Below, one piece after another: positions 1 to 14,049 of a stretch of DNA of 64,000 bases. Source of the stretch: Deltaproteobacteria bacterium (GTDB lineage Bacteria > Myxococcota > Myxococcia > Myxococcales > 40CM-4-68-19); assembly GCA_005879315.1 (NCBI GenBank), contig VBLC01000034.1, forward strand, positions 1 to 64,000, read 5' to 3'. A program made the position numbers and the translations under genes. The stretch's first letter is position 1. Each line of letters begins with the position of its first letter. The notes under the pieces were generated by a model. The model ran no database searches and was not told where the DNA came from. It was given only the letters and a program-made list of their open reading frames with translations.

Positions 1-177
1 CGGGGCCGCGAGCCCGACCTGCCCCAAAGCGACGTGGAGATGGGCGAGTGCTGGTTCTTCATCGACTCGAGCAAAGCCGAGGGGCTGCTCGGCTTCCGCC
101 CGCGCGATCCGCTGGAGACCCTCGCCGACACGGTTCGCTATGTGCGCGAGAACTTCACTGCGGCAAGGCTGGCCTGA
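1..177 (+). CDS. NAD(P)-dependent sugar epimerase/dehydratase, C-terminal end (5' partial)
   Basis: These are the last 58 codons of a gene that enters from the left edge; the frame is open from base 1 to a TGA at 175-177. The peptide WFFIDSSKAEGLLGFRPRDP followed by LADTVRYVREN is the usual tail of extended short-chain dehydrogenases of the epimerase/dihydroflavonol-reductase type, where a D-x-S-K-A-x-x-x-L-G motif precedes the last helix. The nucleotide-binding and catalytic parts lie outside the window, so the substrate cannot be told. The stop shares one base with the next start (TGATG), which suggests translational coupling to the phosphatase that follows. Confidence 0.72.
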   Translation, partial: RGREPDLPQSDVEMGECWFFIDSSKAEGLLGFRPRDPLETLADTVRYVRENFTAARLA

Positions 178-818
178 TGTTGCTCTACCTGGTCCGCCAC
201 GCGCAGACGGCATCGTCGGCGGTCGATGCCTTCAATGGCCAGCGCGAGCTGCCGCTGACCGATCCCGGTCGCGAGCAGGCGCGCAAGCTGGGAGCGCGGC
301 TCGCCTCGGTGCGCTGGGCGGCGGTCTATCGCTCGCCGCTCGGACGGACGGCGGAGACAGCCGCGCTGATCGCGCCAGGCAGTCCGGCGCAAATTCTTCC
401 CGGCCTGATCGAGATCGATTTCGGCTCCTGGGAAGGCCTCTCGCCGGCGCAGGCGCGCGATCGCGACAAGGAACGCTTCGAGGCATGGACGGCAGACCCC
501 GTCGCGGTGTCGCCTCCGGAAGGCGAGACGGCCGATCAGGTCGCGCGGCGCGCGCTCGGAGCTCTGGAAGAGATCCGCGCTCGCCACGAGGACGGCGGCG
601 ACCCCGTGCTGGCCGTCTCGCACAAGGCGACGCTGCGCATCCTCGGCGCGGCGCTCACCGGCGCGCCCATCCGGTTCTATCGGGCGCGCTGGTCGCAGGA
701 CGAATGCGCGCTCAACCTCGTCGAGCTGCGCAAAGGCGCGGAGCCGTTCCTGCGGCTGTGGAACGACACCGCGCATCTCGGTCCCATCCCGGGCGCGACG
801 ACCCGCGGGGGCAAGTGA
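177..818 (+). CDS. Histidine phosphatase superfamily protein (phosphoglycerate mutase-like)
   Basis: This 213-residue protein belongs to the histidine phosphatase superfamily, whose members move or remove phosphate through a phospho-histidine. The signature LVRHAQT sits at the N-terminus with His8 as the likely nucleophile; a second conserved stretch (SPLGRTAET, near 53-61), an acidic residue around Glu79 and the second catalytic histidine in VSHKAT (His149) complete the site. Length fits cobC/gpmB-like phosphatases, but the substrate is not evident. The ATG at 177 was chosen because the RHA motif normally lies within ten residues of the N-terminus and because it overlaps the upstream stop codon. 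It may act on a sugar phosphate or polyprenyl-type substrate together with the upstream epimerase; that is inference. Confidence 0.88.
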   Translation: MLLYLVRHAQTASSAVDAFNGQRELPLTDPGREQARKLGARLASVRWAAVYRSPLGRTAETAALIAPGSPAQILPGLIEIDFGSWEGLSPAQARDRDKERFEAWTADPVAVSPPEGETADQVARRALGALEEIRARHEDGGDPVLAVSHKATLRILGAALTGAPIRFYRARWSQDECALNLVELRKGAEPFLRLWNDTAHLGPIPGATTRGGK

Positions 819-1895
819 TCAGGACGGCCGCTCGAAGAGAAAGAGGCAGTCTTCCCTGCGCGCGCCGGAAGCGTCGGCGACGGCGAACTGCGCCCGCTTG
901 CCGCTGCTGGAGAAGGCGTACATCGAGGCGCTGCCGTAGTCGCCGCGCTTGTTCACCGCATAGAAGCGGATGCCGAAGTTCGGCCGGCCCTTGGCGTCGA
1001 GCAGGCGCTTCTCCCTTGTCGTCTTGGCGATCCGCTCCAGCGTCATCAGGCACGCCTCGCGCGGATGCTTGCCCTGGCGCATCAGCTCGACGGTCAGGTG
1101 GCCGCCGGAGACGAGAATGTTCGCCTCGCCCCGGCCCGTCGAGCCGGCCGAACCGACCTCGTTGTCGGTGAAGCAGCCCGCGCCGATGATCGGCGAGTCG
1201 CCCACCCGGCCCGGCATCTTGAAGAACAGCCCGGAGGTGCTGGTGCAGCCGGCCAGGTCGCCGCGCGCATCGAGAGCGCTCAAGTGGATGGTGCCGCCTG
1301 TCTTGGGCTTGCGGAATTCGTCCCAGCCGAATTCTTCGATGAAGGCCTTCAACTCCGGGTCGTAATGCTCCGCGTCCGGCTCGAGCCATTTGTCCTTCTC
1401 CGAGAGGTTCTGCTTCCAGAAGAGCCACACCTTGCGCGCCTTCTCGGTCAGCAGATTCTCCACCGCAAATCCGTTCATGCTTGCGAAATGGCGCGCGCCC
1501 GGCCCGACCAGGAGCACGTGGTCGGTCGTCTCCATCACCAGCTTCGCCACCTTGGTGGGATTGCGCACGCCTTCGAGCGAAGCTACCGCGCCGGCTCGCG
1601 CGGTCGGCCCGTGCATCACGCAGGCGTCGAGCTGCACGACGCATTCCTCGTTGGGCACGCCGCCGTAGCCGACGGTCATGTCGTTGGGATCGTCCTCGAC
1701 GAGATTGACGCCGGCGATGGCAGCGTCGAGGGGGTCGATGCCTTGCTGCATCCGCCGCACGGCCAGCTCGACGGCCTTCAATCCATTCGCCGAGGAGACG
1801 GCCAAGGGCGCCGGACGCTTCTGCGCGCCCGCCGCCTTGACGACGGCGGTTGCCGCAGCCGCCGTGCCCAGCAGCTGGCGACGGGAGATGGTCAT
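819..1895 (-). CDS. Tat-exported isoaspartyl peptidase/asparaginase family (Ntn hydrolase)
   Basis: A 358-residue member of the N-terminal-nucleophile hydrolases of the glycosylasparaginase / type 2 asparaginase family, which cleave themselves to expose a catalytic threonine. The start of the mature beta chain appears at GGTIHLSALDARG, with Thr202 as predicted nucleophile, followed by the expected glycine-rich stretch (GAGCFTDNEVGSAGSTG). The N-terminus MTISRRQLLGTAAAATA is a twin-arginine signal, so the enzyme is exported folded. Substrate is either an N-glycosyl-asparagine, L-asparagine or isoaspartyl dipeptides. It lies 8 bp behind mscL on the same strand with an AAGAGG ribosome site just after the mscL stop, so the two are probably co-transcribed. 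Confidence 0.87.
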   Translation of the reverse strand: MTISRRQLLGTAAAATAVVKAAGAQKRPAPLAVSSANGLKAVELAVRRMQQGIDPLDAAIAGVNLVEDDPNDMTVGYGGVPNEECVVQLDACVMHGPTARAGAVASLEGVRNPTKVAKLVMETTDHVLLVGPGARHFASMNGFAVENLLTEKARKVWLFWKQNLSEKDKWLEPDAEHYDPELKAFIEEFGWDEFRKPKTGGTIHLSALDARGDLAGCTSTSGLFFKMPGRVGDSPIIGAGCFTDNEVGSAGSTGRGEANILVSGGHLTVELMRQGKHPREACLMTLERIAKTTREKRLLDAKGRPNFGIRFYAVNKRGDYGSASMYAFSSSGKRAQFAVADASGARREDCLFLFERPS

Positions 1896-1903
1896 GGCCT
1901 CTT

Positions 1904-2308
1904 CTACCCCGGGACGCCTCCAGCCGCAGCGACCGGCTGGCCACACGCTTTGCACCGCCGCGCAGCGATCGGAATCGCTTCCAGGCACTGGGGGCAGGGC
2001 CGCGTCGTCGGCACCGCTTCGCGCAAGAGCGTCTTCACCAGCACGAATACCACCAGCGCAATGAACAAGAAATCGATCAGGCGCCCGATCAGGTCGCCAT
2101 ACTTGATCGCGTTCGCGCCCGAGAGCTGAAGCTGCGCGTTGCGCCACTCGCCACCGGGCAGGACCACGCCGACGATCGGCATCAGCACATCATCGACGAT
2201 TCCCGAGACCACCTTGCTCACTGCTGCGCCGATGATGACTCCGACGGCGAGCGCGAGGGCATTTTGCTTGAAGAGGAAATCGCGGAATTCTTTTGCGTAG
2301 GCTTTCAC
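1904..2308 (-). CDS. mscL: Large-conductance mechanosensitive channel MscL with C-terminal zinc ribbon
   Basis: MscL opens under membrane tension to release solutes during hypo-osmotic shock. The 134-residue protein starts with the amphipathic MKAYAKEFRDFLFKQNALAL segment and has the two expected membrane helices (about 17-50 and 77-95), with the glycine/alanine-rich pore helix containing NALALAVGVIIGAAV. The cytoplasmic end is unusual: instead of the short charged helix of E. coli MscL it carries two CxxC pairs (Cys105, 108, 119, 122) that look like a zinc ribbon. Such tails occur in some other bacterial MscL proteins, and their role is not established. It heads a two-gene unit with the exported asparaginase-like hydrolase. 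Confidence 0.95.
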   Translation of the reverse strand: MKAYAKEFRDFLFKQNALALAVGVIIGAAVSKVVSGIVDDVLMPIVGVVLPGGEWRNAQLQLSGANAIKYGDLIGRLIDFLFIALVVFVLVKTLLREAVPTTRPCPQCLEAIPIAARRCKACGQPVAAAGGVPG

Positions 2309-2341
2309 GGCGTCTCCTTGGCGTGGCCGGGTACCCCATGC

Positions 2342-2347
2342 TATCCA
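2342..2347 (+). promoter_or_regulatory. Predicted -10 box (TATCCA) of the GT2 gene, leaderless type
   Basis: TATCCA lies 8 bases before the ATG at 2356. No Shine-Dalgarno sequence is visible before this ATG, so transcription would begin at or next to the start codon. Confidence 0.35.
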
Positions 2348-2355
2348 GCCCGCGG

Positions 2356-3354
2356 ATGGACCGACCTCAGCTCTCCGTCATCATCCCTCTATTCAACGAG
2401 GAGGAGAACGTCCAGCCGCTTCTGGACGAGCTCTTCGGCGAGCTGGCGAAGCTGGGCCGCTCGCACGAGGTCATCTGTGTCGACGACGGCAGCAGCGACG
2501 GCACTTTCGCGGTGCTCTCGCGCATCGCCGCGCAGCGGCCCGAGCTGCACGTCATCCGCTTCCGCCTCAACTTCGGACAGACGGCGGCGATGAGCGCCGG
2601 CATCGAAGCCGCGCGCGGCGAAGTGATCGTACCGATGGACGGCGATCTGCAGAACGACCCCGCCGACATCGGCAAGCTGCTCGGCCGGCTGGACGCAGGC
2701 TACGACGTGGTCTCCGGCTGGCGGCGCGATCGCCGGGACCGCGAATTCGGCCGCAAGCTTCCCAGCCGGATCGCGAACCTCCTCATCTCCGCCATCTCCG
2801 GAGTGCGGCTGCACGATTATGGCTGTTCCTTGAAAGCCTACCGCCGCGAAGTGCTGCGCGACGTGAAGCTCTATGGGGAAATGCATCGCTTCATCCCCAT
2901 CTATGCATCCTGGCAAGGGGCGCGCGTCACCGAGATGGTGGTCAATCACCGCCCGCGCCGGGCCGGCCGCTCGAAATATGGCCTCTCGCGCACCTTCAAG
3001 GTCGTGCTCGATCTCCTGGTGGTGAAGTTTCTCGCCAGCTACGCGACCAAGCCCATCTACCTCTTCGGCGGCTTCGGTCTTTTCTCCTGGCTGTGCGCCC
3101 TGGGGGCGTTCGTCTGGGCGCTCTATTACAAGCTGGCCGGATTGAAGGACTTCGTGGAGACGCCGCTGCCGCTGGTGACGGTGATGTTCACGCTGATCGG
3201 CGCGCTCTCTCTCTTGATGGGCCTGCTCGCCGAGCTGGTCATCCGCACCTATTACGAGTCGCAGAACAAGCGGCCCTATCTCGTCGCCGAGGAGCTGAAC
3301 GGAGCTCGCCCGGCCGATGTCCGGAGCCTTCCGCCCGGCGCACGGGGCCTGTAG
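2356..3354 (+). CDS. GT2 glycosyltransferase, dolichol-phosphate mannosyltransferase/ArnC-like
   Basis: A 332-residue family 2 glycosyltransferase of the type that moves a sugar from a nucleotide sugar to a polyprenyl phosphate on the inner face of the membrane. The N-terminal GT-A domain has SVIIPLFNEEENV, the nucleotide-binding VDDGSSDGT (Asp43-Asp44) and the metal-binding MDGDLQNDP (Asp95, Asp97); two membrane helices follow near 235-260 and 272-295. The start at 2356 was chosen over an in-frame ATG at 2338 because the fold begins directly at MDRPQLSVII and a -10-like box lies 8 bp upstream. Its stop is directly followed by the asnB start. With the PMT-like gene further on, it may supply a polyprenyl-linked sugar donor. 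Confidence 0.9.
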   Translation: MDRPQLSVIIPLFNEEENVQPLLDELFGELAKLGRSHEVICVDDGSSDGTFAVLSRIAAQRPELHVIRFRLNFGQTAAMSAGIEAARGEVIVPMDGDLQNDPADIGKLLGRLDAGYDVVSGWRRDRRDREFGRKLPSRIANLLISAISGVRLHDYGCSLKAYRREVLRDVKLYGEMHRFIPIYASWQGARVTEMVVNHRPRRAGRSKYGLSRTFKVVLDLLVVKFLASYATKPIYLFGGFGLFSWLCALGAFVWALYYKLAGLKDFVETPLPLVTVMFTLIGALSLLMGLLAELVIRTYYESQNKRPYLVAEELNGARPADVRSLPPGARGL

Positions 3355-5238
3355 ATGTGCGGCATCTGCGGCGACGTCGATCTCTCCGGCGCGCCCGACG
3401 CCGAAGGAGTGCGCCGCGCCGCCAGGGCGCTGCAGCATCGCGGGCCCGACGCCGAAGGATTCTTCGACGAAGGCCCGGCGGCGCTGGGGCATCGGCGGCT
3501 GGCGATCCTCGACCTGAAGTCGGGCGACCAGCCGATGACCCGCGAAGGGGTGACGCTCGTCTTCAACGGCGAGGCCTACGACTTCGCCGAGCTCCGCGAG
3601 GAGCTGCGCGGCAAGGGCCATCCTTTCACCAGCCGCAGCGATACCGAAGTGGTGTTGCGCGCCTATCTCGAATGGGGCGAGTCTTTCGCCGAGCACGTCC
3701 AGGGGATGTTCGCGCTCGCTCTCTGGGATTCGCGCTCGCGGAAGCTTTTGCTCGCGCGCGACCGGCTGGGAAAGAAGCCGCTCTACTATTTCGTGCGGGG
3801 CGCGCGCTGCGTCTTCGCCTCGGAGCTGAAGGCGCTGGCCGCGCACGGAGCGGCGCCGCGCGAGATCGATCCCGACGCGCTCGTCCAGTATCTCGCTTGC
3901 GAATACGTGCCGGCACCGGCGAGCATCTATCGATCGATCCGCAAGCTGCCGGCCGCGCACGTGGCGGTGTTCGATTCTTCCGGCCTGCGTGTCCGCCGCT
4001 ACTGGGAGCTGCCCGCGCCGGCGCAGACCGCCCCCGAAGATGCCGCGGCAGAGCTGGTGCGGCTGCTCGACCAGGCGGTGGCGAAGCGGCTCGTGGCCGA
4101 CGTGCCGGTGGGCGTCTTTCTCTCCGGCGGCATCGATTCCACTTCGATCGCTGCGCTCGCGGCGCGGCACAAGAAGCCGCTGCGCACTTTCTCCATCGGC
4201 TTTGTCGAGGAGAGCTTCGACGAGTCTCCCTGGGCGTCGCTCGCGGCAAAGCGGCTCGGCACCGAGCATTCGTCGCAGAAGTTCTCCGGCCAGGACTGCC
4301 TCGACCTCTTGCCCGCGGCGGTGGCGCAACTCGACGAGCCCTTCGCCGATCCCAGCGTCCTTCCCACGCTCCTGCTCTCGCGATTCACTCGCCAGCAGGT
4401 CAAGGTCGCCCTCGCCGGCGACGGCGGGGATGAGCTCTTCGCCGGCTACGATCCCTTCCTCGCGCACCGCCCCGCGGCGCTGCTCGCGCGCTTGCCGCGG
4501 CCCTTGCGAGCGCTGGTCGAAGCGGCCGTCTCGCGGCTGCCCTCCTCGTCGAGGAACATGAGCTTCGATTTCCGCCTCAAGCAATTCTTCCGCGGCCTGG
4601 AAGCGAAGCCCAGCCTGCGCCACCAGGCCTGGATCGCTTCCTTCCTGCCCGGCGAGATCGCGCCGCTCCTGCAGCCTGAGCTGCGCGCGCGCGCCACCGA
4701 GGAGGTCGCTTTCCACCAGGTGCTGGAGGACGTGTCCGGCCTCGCGCCCGGGTCGATGGACGAGGCGCTCCGCTTCTATCTCTCGCGCTACCTGGCCGAC
4801 GACATCCTGGTCAAGGCCGACCGCGCCTCGATGGCGGCCTCGCTGGAATTGCGCGCGCCCTATCTCGACACCAAGGTGGTGGAGTTCGCCGCCCGGCTGC
4901 CGTGGCGCATGAAGGTCTCCCTGACGCGCACCAAGGTGCTGCTGAAAAAAGCGCTGCGCGGCATCGTGCCTGACGAGATCCTCCGGCGGCCCAAGAAAGG
5001 ATTCGGCATCCCGGTCGCGGCCTGGATCCGCGGGCCGCTGCGGCCCTTGTTCGAGGAGATGCTCTCCGAGCGCGCCCTGCGGGAAGGCGGCGTGTTCGAG
5101 CCGCCGGCGGTCCGCGAGCTCTTGCAAAAGCACCTGGCGGGGCGCGCCGATCTGCGCAAGCCGCTCTGGACGCTGCTCATGTTCCAGCTCTGGCAGCGCA
5201 ATCATGCCCAGCCGGCTGCGCTCAAGAGGGTGGCGTGA
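3355..5238 (+). CDS. asnB: Asparagine synthetase (glutamine-hydrolysing)
   Basis: The 627-residue enzyme makes asparagine from aspartate, ATP and glutamine-derived ammonia, or transfers an amide to a related carboxylate in surface-polysaccharide pathways. It begins MCGICGDVDL, so Cys2 is the glutaminase nucleophile after removal of Met1; the N-terminal glutamine amidotransferase domain spans about 1-200 and the synthetase domain has the PP-loop LSGGIDSTS near 256-264. The full length is intact. It lies between a GT2 enzyme and a sugar epimerase with no spacing, an arrangement common in exopolysaccharide and modified-glycan clusters, so it may amidate a sugar acid rather than serve general asparagine supply. 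Confidence 0.95.
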   Translation: MCGICGDVDLSGAPDAEGVRRAARALQHRGPDAEGFFDEGPAALGHRRLAILDLKSGDQPMTREGVTLVFNGEAYDFAELREELRGKGHPFTSRSDTEVVLRAYLEWGESFAEHVQGMFALALWDSRSRKLLLARDRLGKKPLYYFVRGARCVFASELKALAAHGAAPREIDPDALVQYLACEYVPAPASIYRSIRKLPAAHVAVFDSSGLRVRRYWELPAPAQTAPEDAAAELVRLLDQAVAKRLVADVPVGVFLSGGIDSTSIAALAARHKKPLRTFSIGFVEESFDESPWASLAAKRLGTEHSSQKFSGQDCLDLLPAAVAQLDEPFADPSVLPTLLLSRFTRQQVKVALAGDGGDELFAGYDPFLAHRPAALLARLPRPLRALVEAAVSRLPSSSRNMSFDFRLKQFFRGLEAKPSLRHQAWIASFLPGEIAPLLQPELRARATEEVAFHQVLEDVSGLAPGSMDEALRFYLSRYLADDILVKADRASMAASLELRAPYLDTKVVEFAARLPWRMKVSLTRTKVLLKKALRGIVPDEILRRPKKGFGIPVAAWIRGPLRPLFEEMLSERALREGGVFEPPAVRELLQKHLAGRADLRKPLWTLLMFQLWQRNHAQPAALKRVA

Positions 5239-6182
5239 AGCGCGTCCTGGTGACGGGTGGCGCAGGATTCATCGGCTCGCATCTGGTCAGGGCGCTGCTC
5301 GATCGCGGCGACGAAGTCTCGATCGTCGACAATTTCGATCCTTTCTACCCCGAGCGGCTGAAGCGGCGCGGATTGGCGAAAGGCGCGCGCCTCTTCGAGA
5401 GCGACATCCGCGACCAGGAGGCGATGGGGAGGACCTTCGCGCAGGCGCGGCCGGACGTAGTCGTCCACCTGGCTGCGCTCGCCGGCGTGCGACCCTCGCT
5501 GCAGCGGCCGGCGGCGTACATGGACGTCAACGTCGTCGGCACCGCCGTGCTCCTCGAGGCGGCGCGCGCAGCCGGCGTGCGCCGCTTCCTTCTCGGCAGC
5601 AGCTCTTCCGTCTACGGCGCCCATGCGCAGTCGCCTTTCAAGGAAAGCGCGCGCATCGAGGCGCCCGAGTCTCCTTACGCCGCCTCGAAAGTCGCGAGCG
5701 AAGTCCTGGCGCGCACCTTCCACAATCTCTACGGCCTGGAAATCGCCGCGCTGCGCTTCTTCACCGTCTACGGCCCGCGCCAGCGCCCCGACCTCGCCAT
5801 CCACAAATTCTCCCGCCTGATGCTCGCGGGAAAGGCGCTGCCTTTCTACGGCGACGGCTCCTCTCGCCGCGACTACACCTGGGTGGACGACATCGTCGCT
5901 GGCGTCCTCGCCGCCGGCGACGCGAACCTGAAATGGGACATCCTCAATCTGGGCGGCGCGCACACCACCTCGCTCGCCGAGCTCGTCGCGCTCCTGGAAG
6001 AGACGCTGGGCAAGAAAGCCATTCTCGACCGCCAGCCGGCGCAGCCCGGAGACGTCCCGCTCACCAGCGCGGACGTGACTCATTCGGGAGAGGTGCTCGG
6101 CTATTCGCCCAGGACTTCGATCCGCGATGGGCTGAAGAAGTTCGCCGGATGGATTCTCGGCGAGGGCCGCGACTGGGTCTGA
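5235..6182 (+). CDS. NAD-dependent epimerase, UDP-glucuronate 4-epimerase-like
   Basis: A 315-residue extended short-chain dehydrogenase that interconverts nucleotide sugars. The Rossmann motif GGAGFIG is at 8-14 and the catalytic Tyr148 and Lys152 are in SPYAASKVASE; the segment LRFFTVYGPRQRPDLAI is typical of UDP-glucuronate and UDP-galactose-type 4-epimerases. The start is a GTG overlapping the asnB TGA (GTGA), showing translational coupling in the GT2-asnB-epimerase operon. The exact sugar is uncertain: UDP-glucuronate/galacturonate is the best guess from the YGPRQRPDLAI stretch, and a uronic acid product would give asnB a carboxylate to amidate (inference). Confidence 0.92.
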   Translation: MKRVLVTGGAGFIGSHLVRALLDRGDEVSIVDNFDPFYPERLKRRGLAKGARLFESDIRDQEAMGRTFAQARPDVVVHLAALAGVRPSLQRPAAYMDVNVVGTAVLLEAARAAGVRRFLLGSSSSVYGAHAQSPFKESARIEAPESPYAASKVASEVLARTFHNLYGLEIAALRFFTVYGPRQRPDLAIHKFSRLMLAGKALPFYGDGSSRRDYTWVDDIVAGVLAAGDANLKWDILNLGGAHTTSLAELVALLEETLGKKAILDRQPAQPGDVPLTSADVTHSGEVLGYSPRTSIRDGLKKFAGWILGEGRDWV

Positions 6183-6185
6183 ACC

Positions 6186-7769
6186 TCACTCGTGCTGGAC
6201 GAGCGCTTCCTCGCCGGGGAAGGGCGACTCGCCCGGCAAGAGGCGATAGACCTTCACCACTTCCTGCCCCTCGATGCTCTCCACATGCCAGGGTGGCCGG
6301 TGCGCGAGGTTCTCGACCGCTTCCTGGTTGAAGAAGTAGAGCCGCCCCACTTGCACGAACGCGTAGCAGACGTGGCCCGAGCGGCAGGCGCGGCCGCGCC
6401 GCACGAGTGACTGGGAGAGATCGCTGCGGCCGGCGCGCTCGGAGTAGAGGCGCGCCGTCCAGTCGATCTCGCTGGAGATCTCCGCTTGCGGCTCGGCGTG
6501 CTCGGCCACGTACTGCACCGCCTCGCGGAAGCCGGCGTCGAAATAATCGCAGTGGGGGAAAAAGAACTGCGCCTGCGCATCGCCGCCGCCCAAGGGAGAG
6601 ATGTAGAGGCGGTAGTGGGGCGAGTGCAGCGCGGCCGCCAAGGCCTCACCGCCCGGCAAGAGGAGCACGAGCGCAGCGGCCATCGCCCACCGCGGCGTGC
6701 GCACGGCGTCGACGACCACCGCGGCGGCATGCCCGGCCAAGAGCAAGAAGCCGGGCAGCACCGCGACGAAGAAGCGACCCCACTTCGAGCCCGAGAGCGA
6801 GAGGACGAGGAACCAGACGCCCAACCAGCTGAGGATCAACTTGTGCGCGTCCTTGCGCTGGACGACGGCGAGAAAGAGCCCGCCCACGGCGAAGACGAAG
6901 GTGGCGGGGGCGAGCTTGACGGCCGCGAAGACCGCGTAGAACCACGGCGGCGTGCCGGCGAGGCCGTACTCGACGAGGTTGTGGTAGATGCGGCCCATGA
7001 AGAAGAGCGAGCCGTGCACCGTCTGCTTCCCGGTGAGGTAGGTCCTGGCGTATTCCCAGGTCGAGGGCAAGAAGGGCGACCAGTTGACCGCCGCCCAGAG
7101 CAGAGCGGCGATGCCGATCAGCTGCAGCCAGCGCCGAAGCGGCACGCGCCAGCCCGATTGCCAGAGATAGAAGACGACCGGAATCGGGGCGAGGAAGAAG
7201 AAGTACTTCGAGGCGAACAGGCCGGCGAGCGACGCAGCCGCCCCGACCTCCCAGCGGCGCGCCTCGTAGGGCGGAGCTGCTTTTGCCTCCGCCATGCACC
7301 AGAGCAGGAGCATGAGGAAGAGGCCGAGCAGGGCGTCTTCCTTGGCCACGCGCTGGTACCCGATCAGCGTCACGGAGAAAGCGGTGAGCGCCGCGGCGAA
7401 CAGTCCCGCCATCCGCCCGAACAACCGGCGGCCGAGCTGCGCGACCACCCAGATGGAAAGACCGCCCACCAGCGCGTTCGGCAGGCGGGTGATGGTCTCG
7501 GGGTCGAGAAAGCGCGAGCCGAGCAGCAGGGTGAAGCTGATCAGCCACTTCATCAGCATCGGGTGCTCGACGTCGTCGCCGCCGAAGTCGCCCTGCAGGT
7601 AGCGGTTTGCCGCCAGCCACTTGTGCACTTCGTCGTCGCCGAACCCCTCGGCAGAGAGGCCGCGCAGGCGCAGCCAGAGCCCGGCGGCGATCAGGATCAG
7701 AAGGCCGATCTTCGCCGCCGTCCCCCACGGCGCGGTCGGGCCGCGCAGCTCTGTCTGGGAAAGCTCCAT
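6186..7769 (-). CDS. PMT/ArnT-type membrane glycosyltransferase (GT39/GT83-like)
   Basis: A 527-residue integral membrane protein with about 11-13 hydrophobic helices, resembling dolichyl-phosphate-mannose-protein mannosyltransferases and ArnT. Such enzymes transfer sugars from polyprenyl phosphate donors outside the inner membrane. The first periplasmic loop has the expected acidic pair in GFGDDEVHKWLAANRYLQGD (about residues 43-62), and EHPMLMKW follows. The ATG at 7769 was chosen; an upstream in-frame ATG would add 13 residues of Arg/Pro-rich sequence. The gene converges on the epimerase 3 bp away. Its donor could be the product of the GT2 enzyme (inference); the acceptor, protein or lipid, is unknown. 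Confidence 0.85.
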   Translation of the reverse strand: MELSQTELRGPTAPWGTAAKIGLLILIAAGLWLRLRGLSAEGFGDDEVHKWLAANRYLQGDFGGDDVEHPMLMKWLISFTLLLGSRFLDPETITRLPNALVGGLSIWVVAQLGRRLFGRMAGLFAAALTAFSVTLIGYQRVAKEDALLGLFLMLLLWCMAEAKAAPPYEARRWEVGAAASLAGLFASKYFFFLAPIPVVFYLWQSGWRVPLRRWLQLIGIAALLWAAVNWSPFLPSTWEYARTYLTGKQTVHGSLFFMGRIYHNLVEYGLAGTPPWFYAVFAAVKLAPATFVFAVGGLFLAVVQRKDAHKLILSWLGVWFLVLSLSGSKWGRFFVAVLPGFLLLAGHAAAVVVDAVRTPRWAMAAALVLLLPGGEALAAALHSPHYRLYISPLGGGDAQAQFFFPHCDYFDAGFREAVQYVAEHAEPQAEISSEIDWTARLYSERAGRSDLSQSLVRRGRACRSGHVCYAFVQVGRLYFFNQEAVENLAHRPPWHVESIEGQEVVKVYRLLPGESPFPGEEALVQHE

Positions 7770-7803
7770 GGAGCGCCGCCTTCTACCCGCTGGCGGGGGC
7801 GAA

Positions 7804-7835
7804 GCCAAGTTTCCTGCATCCCAGGAAACACTGGC
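7804..7835. promoter_or_regulatory. Interrupted palindrome, possible operator in divergent promoter region
   Basis: GTTTCCTG at 7809-7816 and its exact complement CAGGAAAC at 7822-7829 flank CATCC; short outer arms GCCA and TGGC extend it with a one-base offset. It sits between the divergent PMT-like and DUF3047 genes and has the size of a dimeric repressor site. No cognate regulator is adjacent. Confidence 0.4.
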
Positions 7836-7870
7836 GCAAATTGCCCCAGCCGGTAAGCTGCCACCTCAGC

Positions 7871-8527
7871 GTGCGCGGCGCCCTCTTCATCATCGTCGCG
7901 GTTCTCCTCCCCGCGGGGACCGCAGGCGAAGAGGCGCGGCCACAAGAAACCCCGATCCCGGTGAGCACCTTCCAGGTGGTGGAGAGCTATTCCGGGCCGG
8001 TCAGCTACTACAAGATCATCCAGGACCCCGAGCAGCCCTTCATCCGGGCGGTCTACCGTCCCCCGCTGGAGACGGTGACGCTGGGCGCGCCCGTGCCGGA
8101 GTCGCTGCGGCAGAAGGTGAAGAGGCTGCGCTGGCGATGGCGGGCGCAGGTGATGCCCAAGGGCGGCAACGAATGCAAGGCGGGCTTCGGCGATTCCGTC
8201 GCCAGCGTCTACATCAACTGGAAGCGCGGATTCAAATGGTACTCGATCAAGTACGTCTGGAGCACCGAGGCCGACAAGGGCCAGGTCTGCGATCAGAAGC
8301 GCAACATCTTCGTGGTGCAGGACACGGTCATCCTCGAGTCGAACGGGCCGGTCGGGGTGTGGAAGGACGAGGAGATCGATCCCTCGGCGGAATTCCGCGC
8401 GCATTTCGAAGGCGGCGATCCCAAGGCGGACGTGCCCGATCTCCTCGGCGTGGGCCTGATGAGCGACGGCGACCAGACGAACAGCATCTCAGCCGCCGAC
8501 TACGCCGGGTTCGTCTTGATCCACTGA
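7871..8527 (+). CDS. Exported DUF3047-like protein
   Basis: A 218-residue protein with an N-terminal hydrophobic signal (about residues 4-20, ending near PAGTAGEE) and a beta-rich domain that resembles DUF3047. Seen landmarks are LRWRWRAQVMPKGG, GDSVASVYINWKRG, and near the end GVGLMSDGDQTNSISAADYAG, matching the way DUF3047 proteins finish with a D-x-D-N-T-motif and a tyrosine-glycine pair. The biochemical role of the family is unknown; export to the periplasm is predicted. The GTG start was chosen because it opens the signal peptide directly; a TAAGCT box lies 11 bases upstream and there is no Shine-Dalgarno site. It is divergent from the PMT-like gene. Confidence 0.72.
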   Translation: MRGALFIIVAVLLPAGTAGEEARPQETPIPVSTFQVVESYSGPVSYYKIIQDPEQPFIRAVYRPPLETVTLGAPVPESLRQKVKRLRWRWRAQVMPKGGNECKAGFGDSVASVYINWKRGFKWYSIKYVWSTEADKGQVCDQKRNIFVVQDTVILESNGPVGVWKDEEIDPSAEFRAHFEGGDPKADVPDLLGVGLMSDGDQTNSISAADYAGFVLIH

Positions 8528-8532
8528 GCTGC

Positions 8533-9510
8533 TCAGGCCTCGGGCAGCTCCTGCGGCGTGAAAGCCGGGGCGGGCGGCCAGTGGAAGACGCTCTTCTTGC
8601 CGAAGAGCGTCTCGCCCTCCATCACCAGGACGAGGACGCCGCCGACGAAGCCCGGCACCACCTGCGTCAGGTGGTAGAGGAAGATGAAAGCGAGCGCGAT
8701 CTCCTTGGGGATGCCGAAGGCGATCAGCGCCAGCGTGCCGCCCGCCTCGAACGATCCGGCGTTGCCGGGCGAAGGGACAGTGGTCGCGATGTTGAAGGCG
8801 GTGAGCGCGGCGAAAGCCTGCATCGGCGTCAGCTCGAGCCCGAGCGCGTGTCCGGCCATGGCGATGACGAAGGTCTCCCAAAGCCAGGGCAAAGGCGCGA
8901 TCACCGTCTCGATGACCAGCAGACGCTTCCAGTGGTTGGCGGCGAAACCATCGCGCAGGTTGGTGAGCCAGCGGGGGCCGCGGCGCAACAGGCCGCTCGC
9001 CATCAGGAAGAGCAGGATTCCCACGCCGAGGACGAGCCCGCCCATCAGCGTCACCGCCCGGAACAGCCAGGAGGGCGGCGAGCCGAGCAGACAAAGCAGT
9101 GGAAACGACGCCACCCAGCCCCACTTGTCGCTCCAGAAATCGACGATCTCGGTGCCGAGCAGCTTCGCGCGCGAAATTCCGGTGCGCTTTCCCAGATACT
9201 GGACCCGCAACAAATCGCCGCCGCGCGCCGGCAAGAGCACATTGAAGGTGAACCCCACCATCATCGCGCGGAAGGCCTGCCCGTAGCTGAGCGGCAGGAG
9301 CGGGCGCATCACGATCCACCAGCGCAGCGCCTGCAGCCCCATCAGCACCAGCCCGCCGGCCGCCGCGAAGAAGAGCGGCTCCCGCGAGACATTGTGCAGC
9401 GAAGCCACCAACTCCTGCTGGGAGATGCCGAGGTAGACGACCACGCCCGCGGCGGCGACCATTCCTGCGAGAAGACCGAGCACCGTGCGGAGCCAGAGCC
9501 GTTGGATCAC
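8533..9510 (-). CDS. Flippase-like integral membrane protein (LPG synthase TM region / UPF0104)
   Basis: A 325-residue protein with about eight membrane helices that matches the lysylphosphatidylglycerol synthase transmembrane-region family (MprF N-terminal half, AglD). Members are implicated in flipping or transferring glycolipids and aminoacyl lipids. Family features seen are the polar FNVLLPARGGDLLRVQYLGK stretch near 85-105 and TVPSPGNAGSFEAG near 250. There is no soluble aminoacyl-transferase domain, so it is not a complete MprF. The start is a GTG overlapping the stop of the radical SAM gene (GTGA), so the two are translated together and probably act in the same lipid or glycan pathway. 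Confidence 0.85.
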   Translation of the reverse strand: MIQRLWLRTVLGLLAGMVAAAGVVVYLGISQQELVASLHNVSREPLFFAAAGGLVLMGLQALRWWIVMRPLLPLSYGQAFRAMMVGFTFNVLLPARGGDLLRVQYLGKRTGISRAKLLGTEIVDFWSDKWGWVASFPLLCLLGSPPSWLFRAVTLMGGLVLGVGILLFLMASGLLRRGPRWLTNLRDGFAANHWKRLLVIETVIAPLPWLWETFVIAMAGHALGLELTPMQAFAALTAFNIATTVPSPGNAGSFEAGGTLALIAFGIPKEIALAFIFLYHLTQVVPGFVGGVLVLVMEGETLFGKKSVFHWPPAPAFTPQELPEA

Positions 9511-10475
9511 AAGATTCCCGTCAGCTCGCCGATGCGCCGCAGCGTGAGGGGCGCCTGCGGCTCGGAGCGGCAGGCGTCGAAGCACGAGCCGCAGTTCGGC
9601 CCTTGATAGGCCGCCGGGAGGAAGTCGGTGTAGTGGGCCACCGGCTGCAGCTCCGCGCAGGGCTGCACCATGCCTTTGGGGCTGACGTGGATCATGATCT
9701 TGCCCGCGCGGCAGCCGTCGATGTGCCGCTTCTCGTAGAACTCGGGCAGCATCTCGAAGAAGTAGTCCGAGGTCATCACGTTGCCGAGCTCCCGCTTGAG
9801 GCGGACGACGCGGGCGCAGACCTTGCGGAACTCGTCCATCTTCTCGTCCGAGACGAAGTGCGCCTGGTTGCCGTTCTTCAGATCGTTGTAGCCGGAGAAG
9901 GCGATGTTGATGCCCCACTTGTGCGCCAGCCGGATGAGCGGCTCGGCGTCGTGCATGTTGTCGACCATCAGCATCGAGGCGAAGGTGAAGACGTTGTAGC
10001 CCTCGGCCACCATCTTCGGCACGGTGCTCTCCAGCCGCTCGAAGAGGCCGGGGATGCCCCGCTCCTGGTCCTGCCGCGCGTCGGGATAGTTCATCGAGAT
10101 GTTGATCTGGTTGACGCCCGCCGCGACCAGCTCCTTGATCTTCGCCTCGGAGAGGAAGCCGCCGTGGGTGAGGACGGTGAGGTAGCGGAAGCCGGGCAGG
10201 GTCTTGATCGACTTGACGATCGCCGGCAGGTCGCGGCGCAACATCGGCTCGCCGCCGGTGAAGACCACGATGAGAGGATCGAAGCGGCGGACGACGTCGG
10301 TGAAGTCGGTCATCTCGTCGCGGTCGCTGATCTTCCAGTAGTCGCAGAAATCGCAGCGCGCGTTGCAGCGCTTGGTGACCTCGATGCTGACGGTGATGGG
10401 TCGCTTGTTGAAGGTGACGTCCAGGAACTTGCCCGCGGCGCGCAACTTTTCCAGCGGGCTGAGGGCGATCTTCAT
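9507..10475 (-). CDS. Radical SAM protein with SPASM-like C-terminus
   Basis: A 322-residue radical S-adenosylmethionine enzyme. The cluster-binding motif is CNARCDFC (Cys37, Cys41, Cys44), followed by the SAM-contacting GGEP at 74-77. The last third has five further cysteines (in GCRAGK, QPCAEL and NCGSCFDAC), resembling a SPASM or twitch auxiliary-cluster region. Substrate is unknown; this subgroup includes peptide-modifying and lipid-modifying enzymes. The ATG at 10475 is preceded by GGGAG with good spacing. Coupling to a flippase-type membrane protein and proximity to glycan genes suggest lipid or glycolipid modification, which is inference only. A radical SAM peptide maturase is less likely because no short precursor gene is visible nearby. 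Confidence 0.85.
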   Translation of the reverse strand: MKIALSPLEKLRAAGKFLDVTFNKRPITVSIEVTKRCNARCDFCDYWKISDRDEMTDFTDVVRRFDPLIVVFTGGEPMLRRDLPAIVKSIKTLPGFRYLTVLTHGGFLSEAKIKELVAAGVNQINISMNYPDARQDQERGIPGLFERLESTVPKMVAEGYNVFTFASMLMVDNMHDAEPLIRLAHKWGINIAFSGYNDLKNGNQAHFVSDEKMDEFRKVCARVVRLKRELGNVMTSDYFFEMLPEFYEKRHIDGCRAGKIMIHVSPKGMVQPCAELQPVAHYTDFLPAAYQGPNCGSCFDACRSEPQAPLTLRRIGELTGIL

Positions 10476-10579: not shown

Positions 10580-11824
10580 TTACGCCGTCTTCAATCGATC
10601 GAGCAAGAGACGGGCTACGCCGCGCCACTGCGCCGGCTGTTTTTCGTCCTGCGCGATGGCGCGCAGCCGCTCGAGCTGCTCGCGAGGGGCGCGCGCCTCG
10701 TGCCATCGCTTGTGTGAGAGCTCGCGGGAAACCTCGGCGAGAAGCTGGTTCTCGCCGGCCACCGCAGCGCGCGCGTCGGCGGCAGCGCAGAGCCGATCGA
10801 TCGCCTCCGGCCGGTTGTCGAAGAGCGACCGCAGCCGCTGCGCGAAGGGCCCCGGCGCAACCGCGGCTTTCATCGGAGGCGGCAGCTCGGAGGAAGGCAG
10901 AGGCAACGGTCGGCCGATGAGCGGCTCCATCGGCTTGCGCGGGGCCTTGGCCGGCACCTCGACGACCACGCCCGTGGGCCGGCGAAACTGCGATCGCTTG
11001 ATGGGAGGCGCAAGCTTCTTCTGGCCGACGACTTCCGTCGTTGCGGGCGGCCGTTTCGGTTCGGCTGCCGGCTTGGTCGGCGAGGGCGCCTTCGCAGCCG
11101 CGACGGCGGCCGGGGGCTGAACCGCAGCCATCTTCTTTTCCGCCTCCTGGACCAAGGGCGCGAAGGCGTCGGGCAAGTTCGGCGGCCAGGCGGGGACGAG
11201 CCCCATCCGCTTGGCAGCGTCCGGCGCGCGCCGCCAGGCGGTGCAGACCGCCTCGAGCAGCTTTTCCCAGGCCTCCCTCTGATCCTGGGACAGCTCGCCC
11301 TGGCCGAGGGCGAAGAGACCCGCGGCGGTGCCGGCATGGCCTTGGGGGGCCGAAGCCAGCATCTCCTTGACCTTCGGCTGCCCCACCGCGGAGGAGGCGG
11401 CGTGCACGGCTCGCGCGAAGGCACCGGCAGCAAGCGACACTTGGCCCAGCTCGCCGTCGCTCTTGAGCGCCGCGGGAAGGCCCTTCTCGACGAGCTTGCG
11501 GGCCGAGCCGCCCAGGCGCGGATCGGTGAGCAAGTCGCCCGCTCCTGCGAAGAGCTTGCCGGCATCGCCCGCCTCCGTCTCCACCAGGCAGCGCGCCGCC
11601 GCCAGCCGGGCGGCTTTGGCCGCCCGCAGATCGCAGGCGAGCTCGAGCAGGACAGCGGCGCCGTCGCCCTGCGCCAGCTCCTTCTGCTCCGCCGGAGGAG
11701 CGCCCAGCGCCGCTCCCAGCGCGGCCAACGCCGAGCTGTCGCGGCGCCGCGCGGCGCGGAGGAACTCCCCCAGGCTGGGCCAGTCGCCGACGCCCTCGCC
11801 CTTGAGCCTCTGGAGGATGGCCAT
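10580..11824 (-). CDS. Hypothetical protein with HEAT-like helical N-terminus and disordered middle
   Basis: I do not recognise this 414-residue protein. The first 210 residues are alanine/leucine-rich helices with no signal peptide (for example AAVLLELACDLRAAKAARLAAARC), which could form a helical-repeat scaffold. Residues about 230-330 are rich in Pro, Ala and Lys (AAAKAPSPTKPAAEPKRPPA) and look disordered; a final helical region with many charged residues covers about 345-414. It is predicted to be cytoplasmic. The start abuts the stop of the small 2TM protein, so it closes a three-gene unit of unknown function that begins at 12964. Confidence 0.7.
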   Translation of the reverse strand: MAILQRLKGEGVGDWPSLGEFLRAARRRDSSALAALGAALGAPPAEQKELAQGDGAAVLLELACDLRAAKAARLAAARCLVETEAGDAGKLFAGAGDLLTDPRLGGSARKLVEKGLPAALKSDGELGQVSLAAGAFARAVHAASSAVGQPKVKEMLASAPQGHAGTAAGLFALGQGELSQDQREAWEKLLEAVCTAWRRAPDAAKRMGLVPAWPPNLPDAFAPLVQEAEKKMAAVQPPAAVAAAKAPSPTKPAAEPKRPPATTEVVGQKKLAPPIKRSQFRRPTGVVVEVPAKAPRKPMEPLIGRPLPLPSSELPPPMKAAVAPGPFAQRLRSLFDNRPEAIDRLCAAADARAAVAGENQLLAEVSRELSHKRWHEARAPREQLERLRAIAQDEKQPAQWRGVARLLLDRLKTA

Positions 11825-13045: not shown

Positions 13046-13921
13046 CTAGCGCCGATCCGGAGTGGTCGAGGGCTGCTGCGAGCCACTCGGGTTGTTCATG
13101 CCGGTGTCGCCCTTGTGGTGCTTGCCCATCTTCGCCTTGCCCATCACTTCGATCTTCTCGGCCCGGTTCGAGGCCGGATCGAAGCTGGCGCGCACCTGCT
13201 CGCCCTCGCGGATGCTGGAGATGCCGGCCGCCGGCTTGCCGCGCCGGATCACCTGGGTCTGCGAGTCCACCGTCAGCGTCACGCCGCCCGCCGCCTGGTC
13301 CAAGGTGATGCTGTTCTCGTCGACCTTGGCAACCGAGCCCGTCACGGTGCGGAGATTGCTGGTGTCGCTGCTGGTGCCGACGCTACCTGCGCCGCCGATC
13401 GCCGTCGACGAGCTGCTGCTGCCCTGGGGCAAGCTCGAGCCGCTCACGCTGCCGGAGGTGCCGGTGTTGCCCTGGCCGTAGGTGGCCGTGCCGCCCACCG
13501 TCCCGCTCGGAGCGTTGCTCGTGCCCGAGGTTCCGTAGGTCGACCCAGTGCCTTGCGCCGAGCCCTGCGCAGTGCTCGAGCCCTGGCCCTGGGTGCTGGT
13601 CGAGCCGCTCGCGCTGCCCTGCGTGCCCATGGACCCCTGGGTGGTACTGCCCTGCGTGCCCATGGACCCCTGGGTGTTCGTGTCGGGCGTGGTCGAGCCC
13701 TGCGCCGTGGCGCTGCTCGCGTTCGAAGTATTGCTCGTGCCCGCAGTCGCGCTGCCCTGCGCGCCGTTCGCGCCGGCCGCCGTGCCCTGCGTGCCCGAGA
13801 CGGAGCCTGATTGCGTCGTGCCGGTGTCGTTGCCTGCCGTCGTCGTTCGCGTGCTCTTGCTGCCCGAGCTGCAGCCGAACATCACCGCAGCGGCGAGCGC
13901 CAATCCGTAACCGATCTTCAT
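13046..13921 (-). CDS. Low-complexity Gly/Ser/Thr/Gln-rich lipoprotein with C-terminal DUF5666-like domain
   Basis: A 291-residue predicted lipoprotein. The N-terminus MKIGYGLALAAAVMFGCSS is a signal peptide ending in a lipobox-like FGC (Cys17). Residues about 20-195 are a repetitive Gly/Ser/Thr/Gln-rich region with TQGSMGTQGS-type units, likely an extended, flexible spacer. Residues about 200-265 (VTGSVAKVDENSITLD, then LTVDSQTQVIRRG) resemble a small beta domain of the DUF5666 kind. A strong AAGGAGG ribosome site lies six bases before the ATG, supporting this start. Role unknown; a surface-displayed domain on a flexible stalk is the simplest reading. Confidence 0.75.
   Translation of the reverse strand: MKIGYGLALAAAVMFGCSSGSKSTRTTTAGNDTGTTQSGSVSGTQGTAAGANGAQGSATAGTSNTSNASSATAQGSTTPDTNTQGSMGTQGSTTQGSMGTQGSASGSTSTQGQGSSTAQGSAQGTGSTYGTSGTSNAPSGTVGGTATYGQGNTGTSGSVSGSSLPQGSSSSSTAIGGAGSVGTSSDTSNLRTVTGSVAKVDENSITLDQAAGGVTLTVDSQTQVIRRGKPAAGISSIREGEQVRASFDPASNRAEKIEVMGKAKMGKHHKGDTGMNNPSGSQQPSTTPDRR
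13614..13676. repeat. Tandem 30-bp direct repeats inside the lipoprotein gene
   Basis: Two identical 30-bp units occupy 13614-13643 and 13647-13676, offset by 33 bp, so the reading frame is kept. They encode consecutive copies of the TQGSMGTQGS unit and could change copy number by slippage or recombination. Confidence 0.8.
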
Positions 13922-13941
13922 GTGCGCCTCCTTAAGGGGTC

Positions 13942-14049
13942 GCGGCGCTTGAGGTGGGCGCCGCACGAAGCGCCGGGAACTGCCCCGGCTGCCCGATGAG
14001 AAGTAGGCATCGGGTTTCCCCCAGGGAAGCAGGACACGCGCTCGTCCTG
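13942..14049. promoter_or_regulatory. Three short hairpins in a divergent intergenic region
   Basis: Between the lipoprotein and the Yip1-type gene lie GCGGCGC/GCGCCGC (13942-13964), CCCGATG/CATCGGG (13992-14014) and CAGGAC/GTCCTG (14030-14049), each with an 8-9 base loop. They may be regulator sites or leader structures; with short arms in GC-rich DNA some could be chance. Confidence 0.3.

Follow-up and report, generated by a model that had tools for sequence, protein, structure and literature searches.

We analysed a locus at the start of a 64,000 nt stretch of a Myxococcales genome (assembly GCA_005879315.1, contig VBLC01000034.1). The whole stretch is called the window; its genome is referred to as G000, the contig that it begins as C52 and the family of that genome as f1. 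The reading that we favour, tentatively and at slightly under even chance, is that two adjacent envelope modules share a place in f1 beside ether-lipid genes. The first (module A: a family-2 glycosyltransferase (GT2), asnB, an epimerase and a PMT-type transferase) would transfer galacturonamide, and the second (module B: a radical S-adenosylmethionine (SAM) protein, an LPG_synthase_TM protein and a DUF3047 protein) would act on a lipid. Gene identity, junctions, conservation, key residues and predicted folds were observed for the following genes:

2356-3354, plus strand: GT2 polyprenyl-phosphate glycosyltransferase (ArnC-like)
3355-5238, plus strand: AsnB-type glutamine amidotransferase (asnB)
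5235-6182, plus strand: UDP-glucuronate 4-epimerase-like short-chain dehydrogenase/reductase (SDR), its carboxylate-site residues aligned with those of 6zl6
~6186-7769 (start approximate), minus strand: PMT_2/GT39 GT-C (ArnT-type) membrane glycosyltransferase (PMT)
~7871-8527 (start approximate), plus strand: DUF3047 protein, probably secreted, predicted beta-sandwich (PF11249, 54.1 bits)
8533-9510, minus strand: LPG_synthase_TM flippase-like membrane protein (LPG_TM)
9507-10475, minus strand: radical SAM protein (PF04055, 67.6 bits) with a CxxxCxxC motif and a C-terminal auxiliary Cys motif

All six genes named in a preliminary description of this DNA were present with intact open reading frames and could be assigned to families. 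The coordinates bear out its proposal of a coupled GT2–asnB–epimerase operon with the PMT, flippase-like and radical SAM genes beside it on the opposite strand: the asnB ATG follows the GT2 stop directly with zero gap, and a GTGA overlap joins asnB and the epimerase gene, all three being on the plus strand. It had passed over the DUF3047 gene, whose product has a likely signal peptide, as well as a histidine phosphatase and a family-2 asparaginase gene. As the plus-strand DUF3047 gene sits between PMT and LPG_TM, a single transcript for PMT and the radical SAM pair appears unlikely from gene order. The GTGA overlap between the radical SAM and LPG_TM genes, which the same description had stressed, was likewise found, and is kept in seven of the ten loci checked (seven of the eight with an LPG_TM gene next door), although in three of these seven the matched part of LPG_TM starts further in and the start codon there is unproven; in L039 a TAG stands in its place, and neither L043 nor L044 has an LPG_TM gene at this position.

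The GT2 protein matched PF00535 with 112.8 bits (gathering score 23.3) and has two likely C-terminal transmembrane segments; its best NCBIfam model was ArnC (NF007986), at 185.2 bits below the curated cut-off of 529. For asnB, matches to PF00733 (354.2 bits) and TIGR01536 (490.2 bits, above the cut-off of 267.1) were accompanied by Cys2 (MCGICG) and an SGGIDS loop in the translation, with the XrtA/PEP-CTERM amidotransferase model TIGR03108 reaching 553.9 bits, below its cut-off of 816.9. The PMT protein matched PF13231 (63.5 bits, gathering score 26.1), scored 30.1 bits with the Agl23 model, below the cut-off of 126.25, and had no PDB relative at E ≤ 1. In the epimerase, S123, S124, S125 and T177 align with T126, S127, S128 and T178 of 6zl6, and the decarboxylase Glu is absent. 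PMC7984243 gives Thr126, Ser127, Ser128 and Thr178 as the carboxylate-binding residues of BcUGAepi. The residue numbers of that enzyme fall at the printed positions in 6zl6, and MoeE5 and 5u4q likewise have Ser at the first carboxylate-site position. The five best PDB matches were 5u4q, 6zl6, the variant 6zlj, 4zrm and MoeE5 6kv9. With the carboxylate-site positions occupied in this way, the protein is placed, by alignment, as a UDP-glucuronate 4-epimerase. Elsewhere, G000 encodes a nucleotide-sugar dehydrogenase (TIGR03026, 447.1 bits) that comes closest to UDP-glucose 6-dehydrogenase.

We surveyed 195 genomes of the phylum Myxococcota for GT2 (E ≤ 1e-60) and counted same-strand asnB adjacency from coordinates. 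GT2 was found in 44 genomes, in 31 of which asnB directly adjoins it on the same strand (10 of 11 in f1 and 21 of 33 outside it), 31 being a lower bound as at most six asnB candidates were scored per genome. The one f1 exception is G011, where GT2 lies at a contig end; for the other 12 non-f1 genomes with GT2 no adjacent asnB was seen, GT2 lying near a contig end in G076 and G168. An epimerase matching that of the window, of L049 or of L050 was found near nine of the 21 non-f1 pairs, and directly behind asnB in five (L158-L162); a 29 % match in L172 was left out of the nine, and some stretches were short. A PMT gene lay near four of the 21. Taken as sequence evidence, this recurrent adjacency supports a coupled GT2–amidotransferase step on a uronic acid.

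We infer from the precedents of MoeE5/MoeF5 and ArnC/ArnT/Rgt that galacturonamide would be the sugar concerned and that the PMT protein would transfer it. In moenomycin synthesis, where MoeF5 and MoeH5 are amidotransferases and an AsnB-like enzyme makes galacturonamide, a UDP-glucuronate 4-epimerase (MoeE5) is linked to an AsnB-like enzyme as it is here; the setting differs, however, in that the present pair stands beside a prenyl-phosphate glycosyltransferase and a PMT gene in a Gram-negative envelope locus rather than in an antibiotic cluster. The lipid A aminoarabinose system ArnC/ArnT and the rhizobial galacturonate transfer system RgtE/RgtA-D share with module A a GT2 prenyl-phosphate sugar synthase, a GT-C membrane transferase and a uronic-acid-derived sugar. 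Unlike these, module A has an AsnB-type amidotransferase right after GT2, no ArnA/ArnB-type genes lie in the block, and the ArnC cut-off is missed. In the open-licence literature we found no paper that treats a radical SAM enzyme together with a flippase, galacturonic acid, polyprenyl phosphate and an asparagine synthase. The one paper retrieved there for DUF3047 is ecogenomic, the one for radical SAM alongside CDP-alcohol transferase, HpnN and LPG_TM deals with hopanoids, and the matches listed for galacturonamide together with amidotransferase concern asparagine synthetase.

For module B, residues C37, C41, C44, C255, C273, C295 and C298 of the radical SAM protein are invariant in 50 aligned rows and C302 is at least 90 % conserved; because its auxiliary Cys residues are conserved in these rows, the protein likely carries a second cluster. 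None of the 25 NCBIfam models listed reached its cut-off: the best of them was the PTO1314 family TIGR03961 (80.5 bits versus 306.05), and the tetraether synthase Tes model NF045702 gave 41.4 bits versus 450. The AlphaFold model (predicted local distance difference test score, pLDDT, 92.4) resembled BlsE at a VIA-align Z of 23.7, with a root-mean-square deviation (rmsd) of 3.1 over 281 residues and 19 % identity, a likeness of fold only, and matched DesII, a sugar-nucleotide enzyme, at Z 20.6. BlsE uses a cytosylglucuronic substrate, according to PMC3715490. The structural comparison proposed in the preliminary description thus came out divided, with BlsE the best match by VIA-align, as would fit sugar chemistry, but the peptide enzyme SkfB nearly equal to it. 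These model-based matches fit sugar chemistry and are also compatible with a peptide substrate; in our view the probable target of the protein is the head group of a lipid or a sugar carried on one.

The LPG_TM protein, one of a group that resembles HpnL, matched PF03706 (113.2 bits, above 33.4) and TIGR00374 (49.3 bits, above 43.2); against the MprF model NF033480, which includes the synthase domain, it scored 38 bits versus a cut-off of 600, the protein being only about 325 aa long. The DUF3047 model, a beta-sandwich with a pLDDT of 84.4, had as its best VIA-align match the beta domain of D-glucuronyl C5-epimerase (Z 14.3, rmsd 2.8 over 151), with glycoside hydrolases trailing at ~Z 10. Foldseek put GH11/GH12 enzymes first, at TM-scores of ~0.5 or less; the C5-epimerase, absent from its 50 listed rows, leads only by VIA-align. 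The PDB yielded two matches for DUF3047, both at E above 0.5. Such a shared fold is not a demonstration of function.

Of the 195 phylum genomes, 13 have a radical SAM relative at E ≤ 1e-25; 11 of the 13 belong to f1 (a piece in G002 is below threshold), and by this count module B is nearly confined, within the phylum, to f1. From a scan of named genomes the best 80 of 111 confirmed relatives were kept. Seven of these (L061-L067) are contigs with the whole f1 block or a part of it that were already counted, and are not new evidence, and L068 has the radical SAM gene (76 %) with a flippase-like gene and without the rest of the block. The remaining 72 loci are more distant and include L072 (G011:C795, 6561 bases), a second copy in f1. 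At these 72 loci the frames searched cover 384 kb within 3 kb of the radical SAM gene and 585 kb at 3-9 kb, which is less than the full flanks; some contigs are short, and absences apply to the available bases only. LPG_TM lies within 3 kb in six of the 72 (L072, L113, L125, L129, L130 and L133), five of them outside f1 genomes; for all six, as well as for L068, PF03706 was confirmed separately by Pfam, which found nothing for a seventh, short match in an L139 frame. DUF3047, also retrieved with the window protein as query, lies within 3 kb in six loci. MlaC-like genes were found in eight (seven within 3 kb), CDP-alcohol phosphotransferase profile matches in 12 (L104 weak; five within 3 kb) and phosphodiesterase matches in 20, this last figure being the union of two profiles that match each other's rows. 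Neither asnB nor an f1-type PMT was matched at any of the 72, and GT2 at one. On these counts, linkage of the radical SAM gene to lipid genes is present in several clades and is not general. The Desulfobacterales loci L113 and L133 share the order aminotransferase, Gfo/Idh oxidoreductase, CDP-alcohol transferase, LPG_TM, radical SAM, PMT-type gene, headed by a nucleotidyltransferase in L113 only, the L133 contig starting later. In the radical SAM tree the f1 rows group with L068 and L072 and the flippase label needs two changes, the deeper order being unsure owing to long branches.

Two further arrangements were seen near radical SAM relatives. At L125, positions 6283-7995 (minus strand) encode a fusion of NTP-transferase and LPG_synthase_TM domains, possibly a direct link of head-group activation and flipping. 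In L127, L132, L134, L135, L137 and L138 (Latescibacterota/Gemmatimonadota), genes for a CDP-alcohol transferase, OEP, DUF3047, MlaC and a type I phosphodiesterase precede the radical SAM gene, a recurrent set suggestive of a cluster for making and exporting a lipid.

Some neighbourhoods of radical SAM relatives, in having MlaC/HpnM, HpnN-like or LPG_TM genes, recall the hopanoid genes (HpnH, HpnM, HpnN and HpnL-type), and module B might be a hopanoid-type pathway whose radical SAM protein acts, like HpnH, on a polycyclic triterpenoid. L082 carries, near its radical SAM relative, HpnN-like RND, HpnM-like and squalene-hopene cyclase genes, along with one for myo-inositol phosphate synthase, and a squalene-hopene cyclase is present in G000. 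However, the HpnH adenosyl-hopene transferase model TIGR03470 gave 45.4 bits, far below its cut-off of 225.05, and the cyclase was found in three of seven genus genomes, compared with seven of seven for the radical SAM gene (in G002 as a piece); it was unseen in G001 (96 % complete) and G003 (91 %). We regard this reading as quite improbable, and dropped it as the main explanation on the HpnH score and the patchy cyclase. As to an inositol lipid, myo-inositol phosphate synthase is found in all seven genus genomes (weak in G001), with only a weak CDP-alcohol transferase in G000, encoded elsewhere.

Within f1, the radical SAM gene was found in 12 of 12 genomes (60 genomes searched, G000 included), as contig-cut pieces only in G002 and G008. 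Its product is among the most conserved of the block, full copies being 80-87 % identical to that of the window (78-88 % for GT2). The order phosphatase, asparaginase, GT2, asnB, epimerase, PMT, DUF3047, flippase-like, radical SAM, hypotheticals is kept wherever contigs or stretches allow. LPG_TM adjoins the radical SAM gene in eight of the 11 other f1 genomes and is cut by the contig end in G008; G009 and G011 lack it here and have a 46-48 % identical relative elsewhere, and a relative of at least 46 % identity is present in all 12. In G011 that relative stands beside a second radical SAM gene (41 % identical), with one frame between. As the elb-like, phosphatase, asparaginase and hypothetical flanks are equally syntenic, conserved gene order in f1 does not mark off these ten kilobases as one pathway.

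The preliminary description had drawn the six genes together into one pathway that builds, amidates, flips and transfers a sugar. In an integrated form of it, the radical SAM protein would modify the uronic sugar of module A, for instance lipid-linked galacturonate by BlsE-like chemistry, and LPG_TM would flip the same intermediate for the PMT protein. Several results are as such a pathway would have them: the genes are syntenic in f1 where contigs allow, save for the missing LPG_TM of G009 and G011; BlsE, the top VIA-align match, acts on glucuronic acid, with DesII among the further matches; DUF3047 is nearest, by VIA-align, to a glucuronyl C5-epimerase domain; and a PMT-type gene directly follows the radical SAM gene in the two Desulfobacterales loci. 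Outside f1, however, the halves separate. None of the 21 non-f1 genomes with a GT2–asnB pair is among the 13 with a radical SAM relative, asnB has no match in the available bases of the 72 distant loci, and the f1 PMT finds no phmmer match at E ≤ 1e-3 in that of the Desulfobacterales; furthermore, synteny is equally strong for neighbours that have no obvious connection. We therefore think an integrated pathway unlikely. Sugar assembly on a lipid carrier, the uronic-type epimerase and the amidotransferase survive from the earlier proposal, whilst two adjacent modules fit better than a single pathway, and the co-occurrence it expected in relatives holds as synteny within f1.

A number of points weigh against the two-module reading itself. 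The GT2, amidotransferase and PMT proteins are assigned at the superfamily level only, the more specific cut-offs being missed, and among the five best matches of the epimerase 4zrm is a UDP-glucose 4-epimerase and 5u4q is labelled a dTDP-glucose 4,6-dehydratase. The fold does not fix the substrate of the radical SAM protein: the peptide maturase SkfB, at Z 22.7, is close to BlsE, and is ahead of it in Foldseek. The neighbour profiles, including the flippase-like one, were built from rows of the same loci that they then find. Of the 72 distant loci, 43 match no profile in the set, and only 15 (one the second f1 copy, one weak) have a lipid-type neighbour once phosphodiesterases are set aside; several rows with lipid linkage nearly duplicate each other. 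In the Dadabacteria and Gemmatimonadota rows most neighbours look like housekeeping genes, as judged from sequence starts and not from a database. Lastly, the f1 locus has no CDP-alcohol transferase, the sole match in G000 being weak and elsewhere. The genes might be ordinary neighbours, asnB making asparagine, GT2 and PMT a plain surface sugar and the radical SAM protein being an unrelated maturase or housekeeping enzyme, in an order kept by slow rearrangement in f1. Synteny that extends to unrelated genes, SkfB as the first Foldseek match and the 43 loci without a lipid-type profile match all agree with this. Against it stand the recurrence of GT2–asnB adjacency in 21 non-f1 genomes of many families, the GTGA coupling, and the linkage of LPG_TM and DUF3047 in other phyla; on balance, such chance neighbourhood seems to us an unlikely account.

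Under the two-module reading we infer every substrate and product, the amidation, the flipping and any hand-over between modules A and B. The UDP-glucose dehydrogenase encoded elsewhere in the genome would supply UDP-glucuronate, which the epimerase would convert to UDP-galacturonate. GT2 would place galacturonate onto prenyl phosphate, and the AsnB-type enzyme would turn the carboxylate into a carboxamide, either while the sugar is still bound to the nucleotide or once it is linked to prenyl phosphate. The sugar-loaded prenyl carrier would then be flipped across the membrane, and the PMT/ArnT-type enzyme would, in the periplasm, transfer galacturonamide to an acceptor that might be lipid A, a different lipid or a protein. 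In module B, the radical SAM protein would work at the cytoplasmic face, chemically altering the head group of a lipid or a sugar linked to one; its coupled partner LPG_TM would bring the product through the inner membrane, to be handled in the periplasm by DUF3047. The locus may thus make an undescribed envelope lipid. A bolder version holds that the radical SAM proteins form an undescribed family, spread over several phyla, that modifies a lipid head group or lipid-linked sugar and has its own LPG_TM flippase, and that in f1 a novel galacturonamide transfer system and an ether-lipid operon join it in making such a lipid; this we consider rather doubtful. Should the two-module reading be right, members of the phylum would repeatedly use GT2–asnB to obtain a uronic sugar in amidated, lipid-carried form, and the amidation would take a negative charge off the envelope. 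The short list of radical SAM families known to work on lipids would grow by one through module B, and the flippase-like LPG_TM protein would gain a defined cargo. The named isolate Desulfoferrobacter suflitae holds a radical SAM relative, which makes module B testable.

The ether-lipid-like genes lie upstream of the block. Contig C109 has an exact 64-base overlap with the window, which starts at the end of its own contig, and carries the sequence on upstream (L035), with an ElbD-like protein at 868-5217 and an ElbE-like SDR at 2-868, both on the minus strand of C109, the latter running to window position 177. The ElbD-like protein contains PF07993, PF00501, PF00550 and PF01553 in this order, each above cut-off (FAR/AMP-ligase/ACP/acyltransferase), and the SDR adjoins it, so that the upstream neighbour combines the four domains in one protein with a neighbouring SDR, in the manner of elb ether-lipid genes. 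The ElbE-like gene is upstream of the phosphatase in all four loci that reach there (L040, L044, L057 and L061), and an ElbD-like gene is present in all three whose sequence reaches still further. The elb ether-lipid operon of Myxococcus xanthus (PMC9131029) has the same four-domain protein followed by an SDR; the present genes differ in being a neighbour directly upstream rather than part of the block, and the likeness is one of domain content and covers elbD and elbE. On L035 a LarAH-like hydroxyacid isomerase gene, cut by the contig end, precedes the ElbD/ElbE-like genes.

The other neighbours of the block within the window are as follows:

177-818, plus strand: histidine phosphatase (His_Phos_1; PF00300, 177.7 bits), its start overlapping the end of the ElbE-like SDR gene
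819 to ~1895 (start approximate), minus strand: family-2 asparaginase (PF01112, 204.4 bits) with a twin-arginine-like N-terminus, kept in f1
10580-11824, minus strand: hypothetical protein directly upstream of the radical SAM gene, with no Pfam match at E ≤ 0.001, kept in f1 by synteny

The asparaginase gene sits between the phosphatase and GT2 in f1 loci, and its RRQLLG start was read from the translation. Further along the window, positions 13046-13966 (minus strand) encode a repetitive protein rich in Ser, Gly and Thr with a lipoprotein-like start, relatives of which are found near the block in f1.

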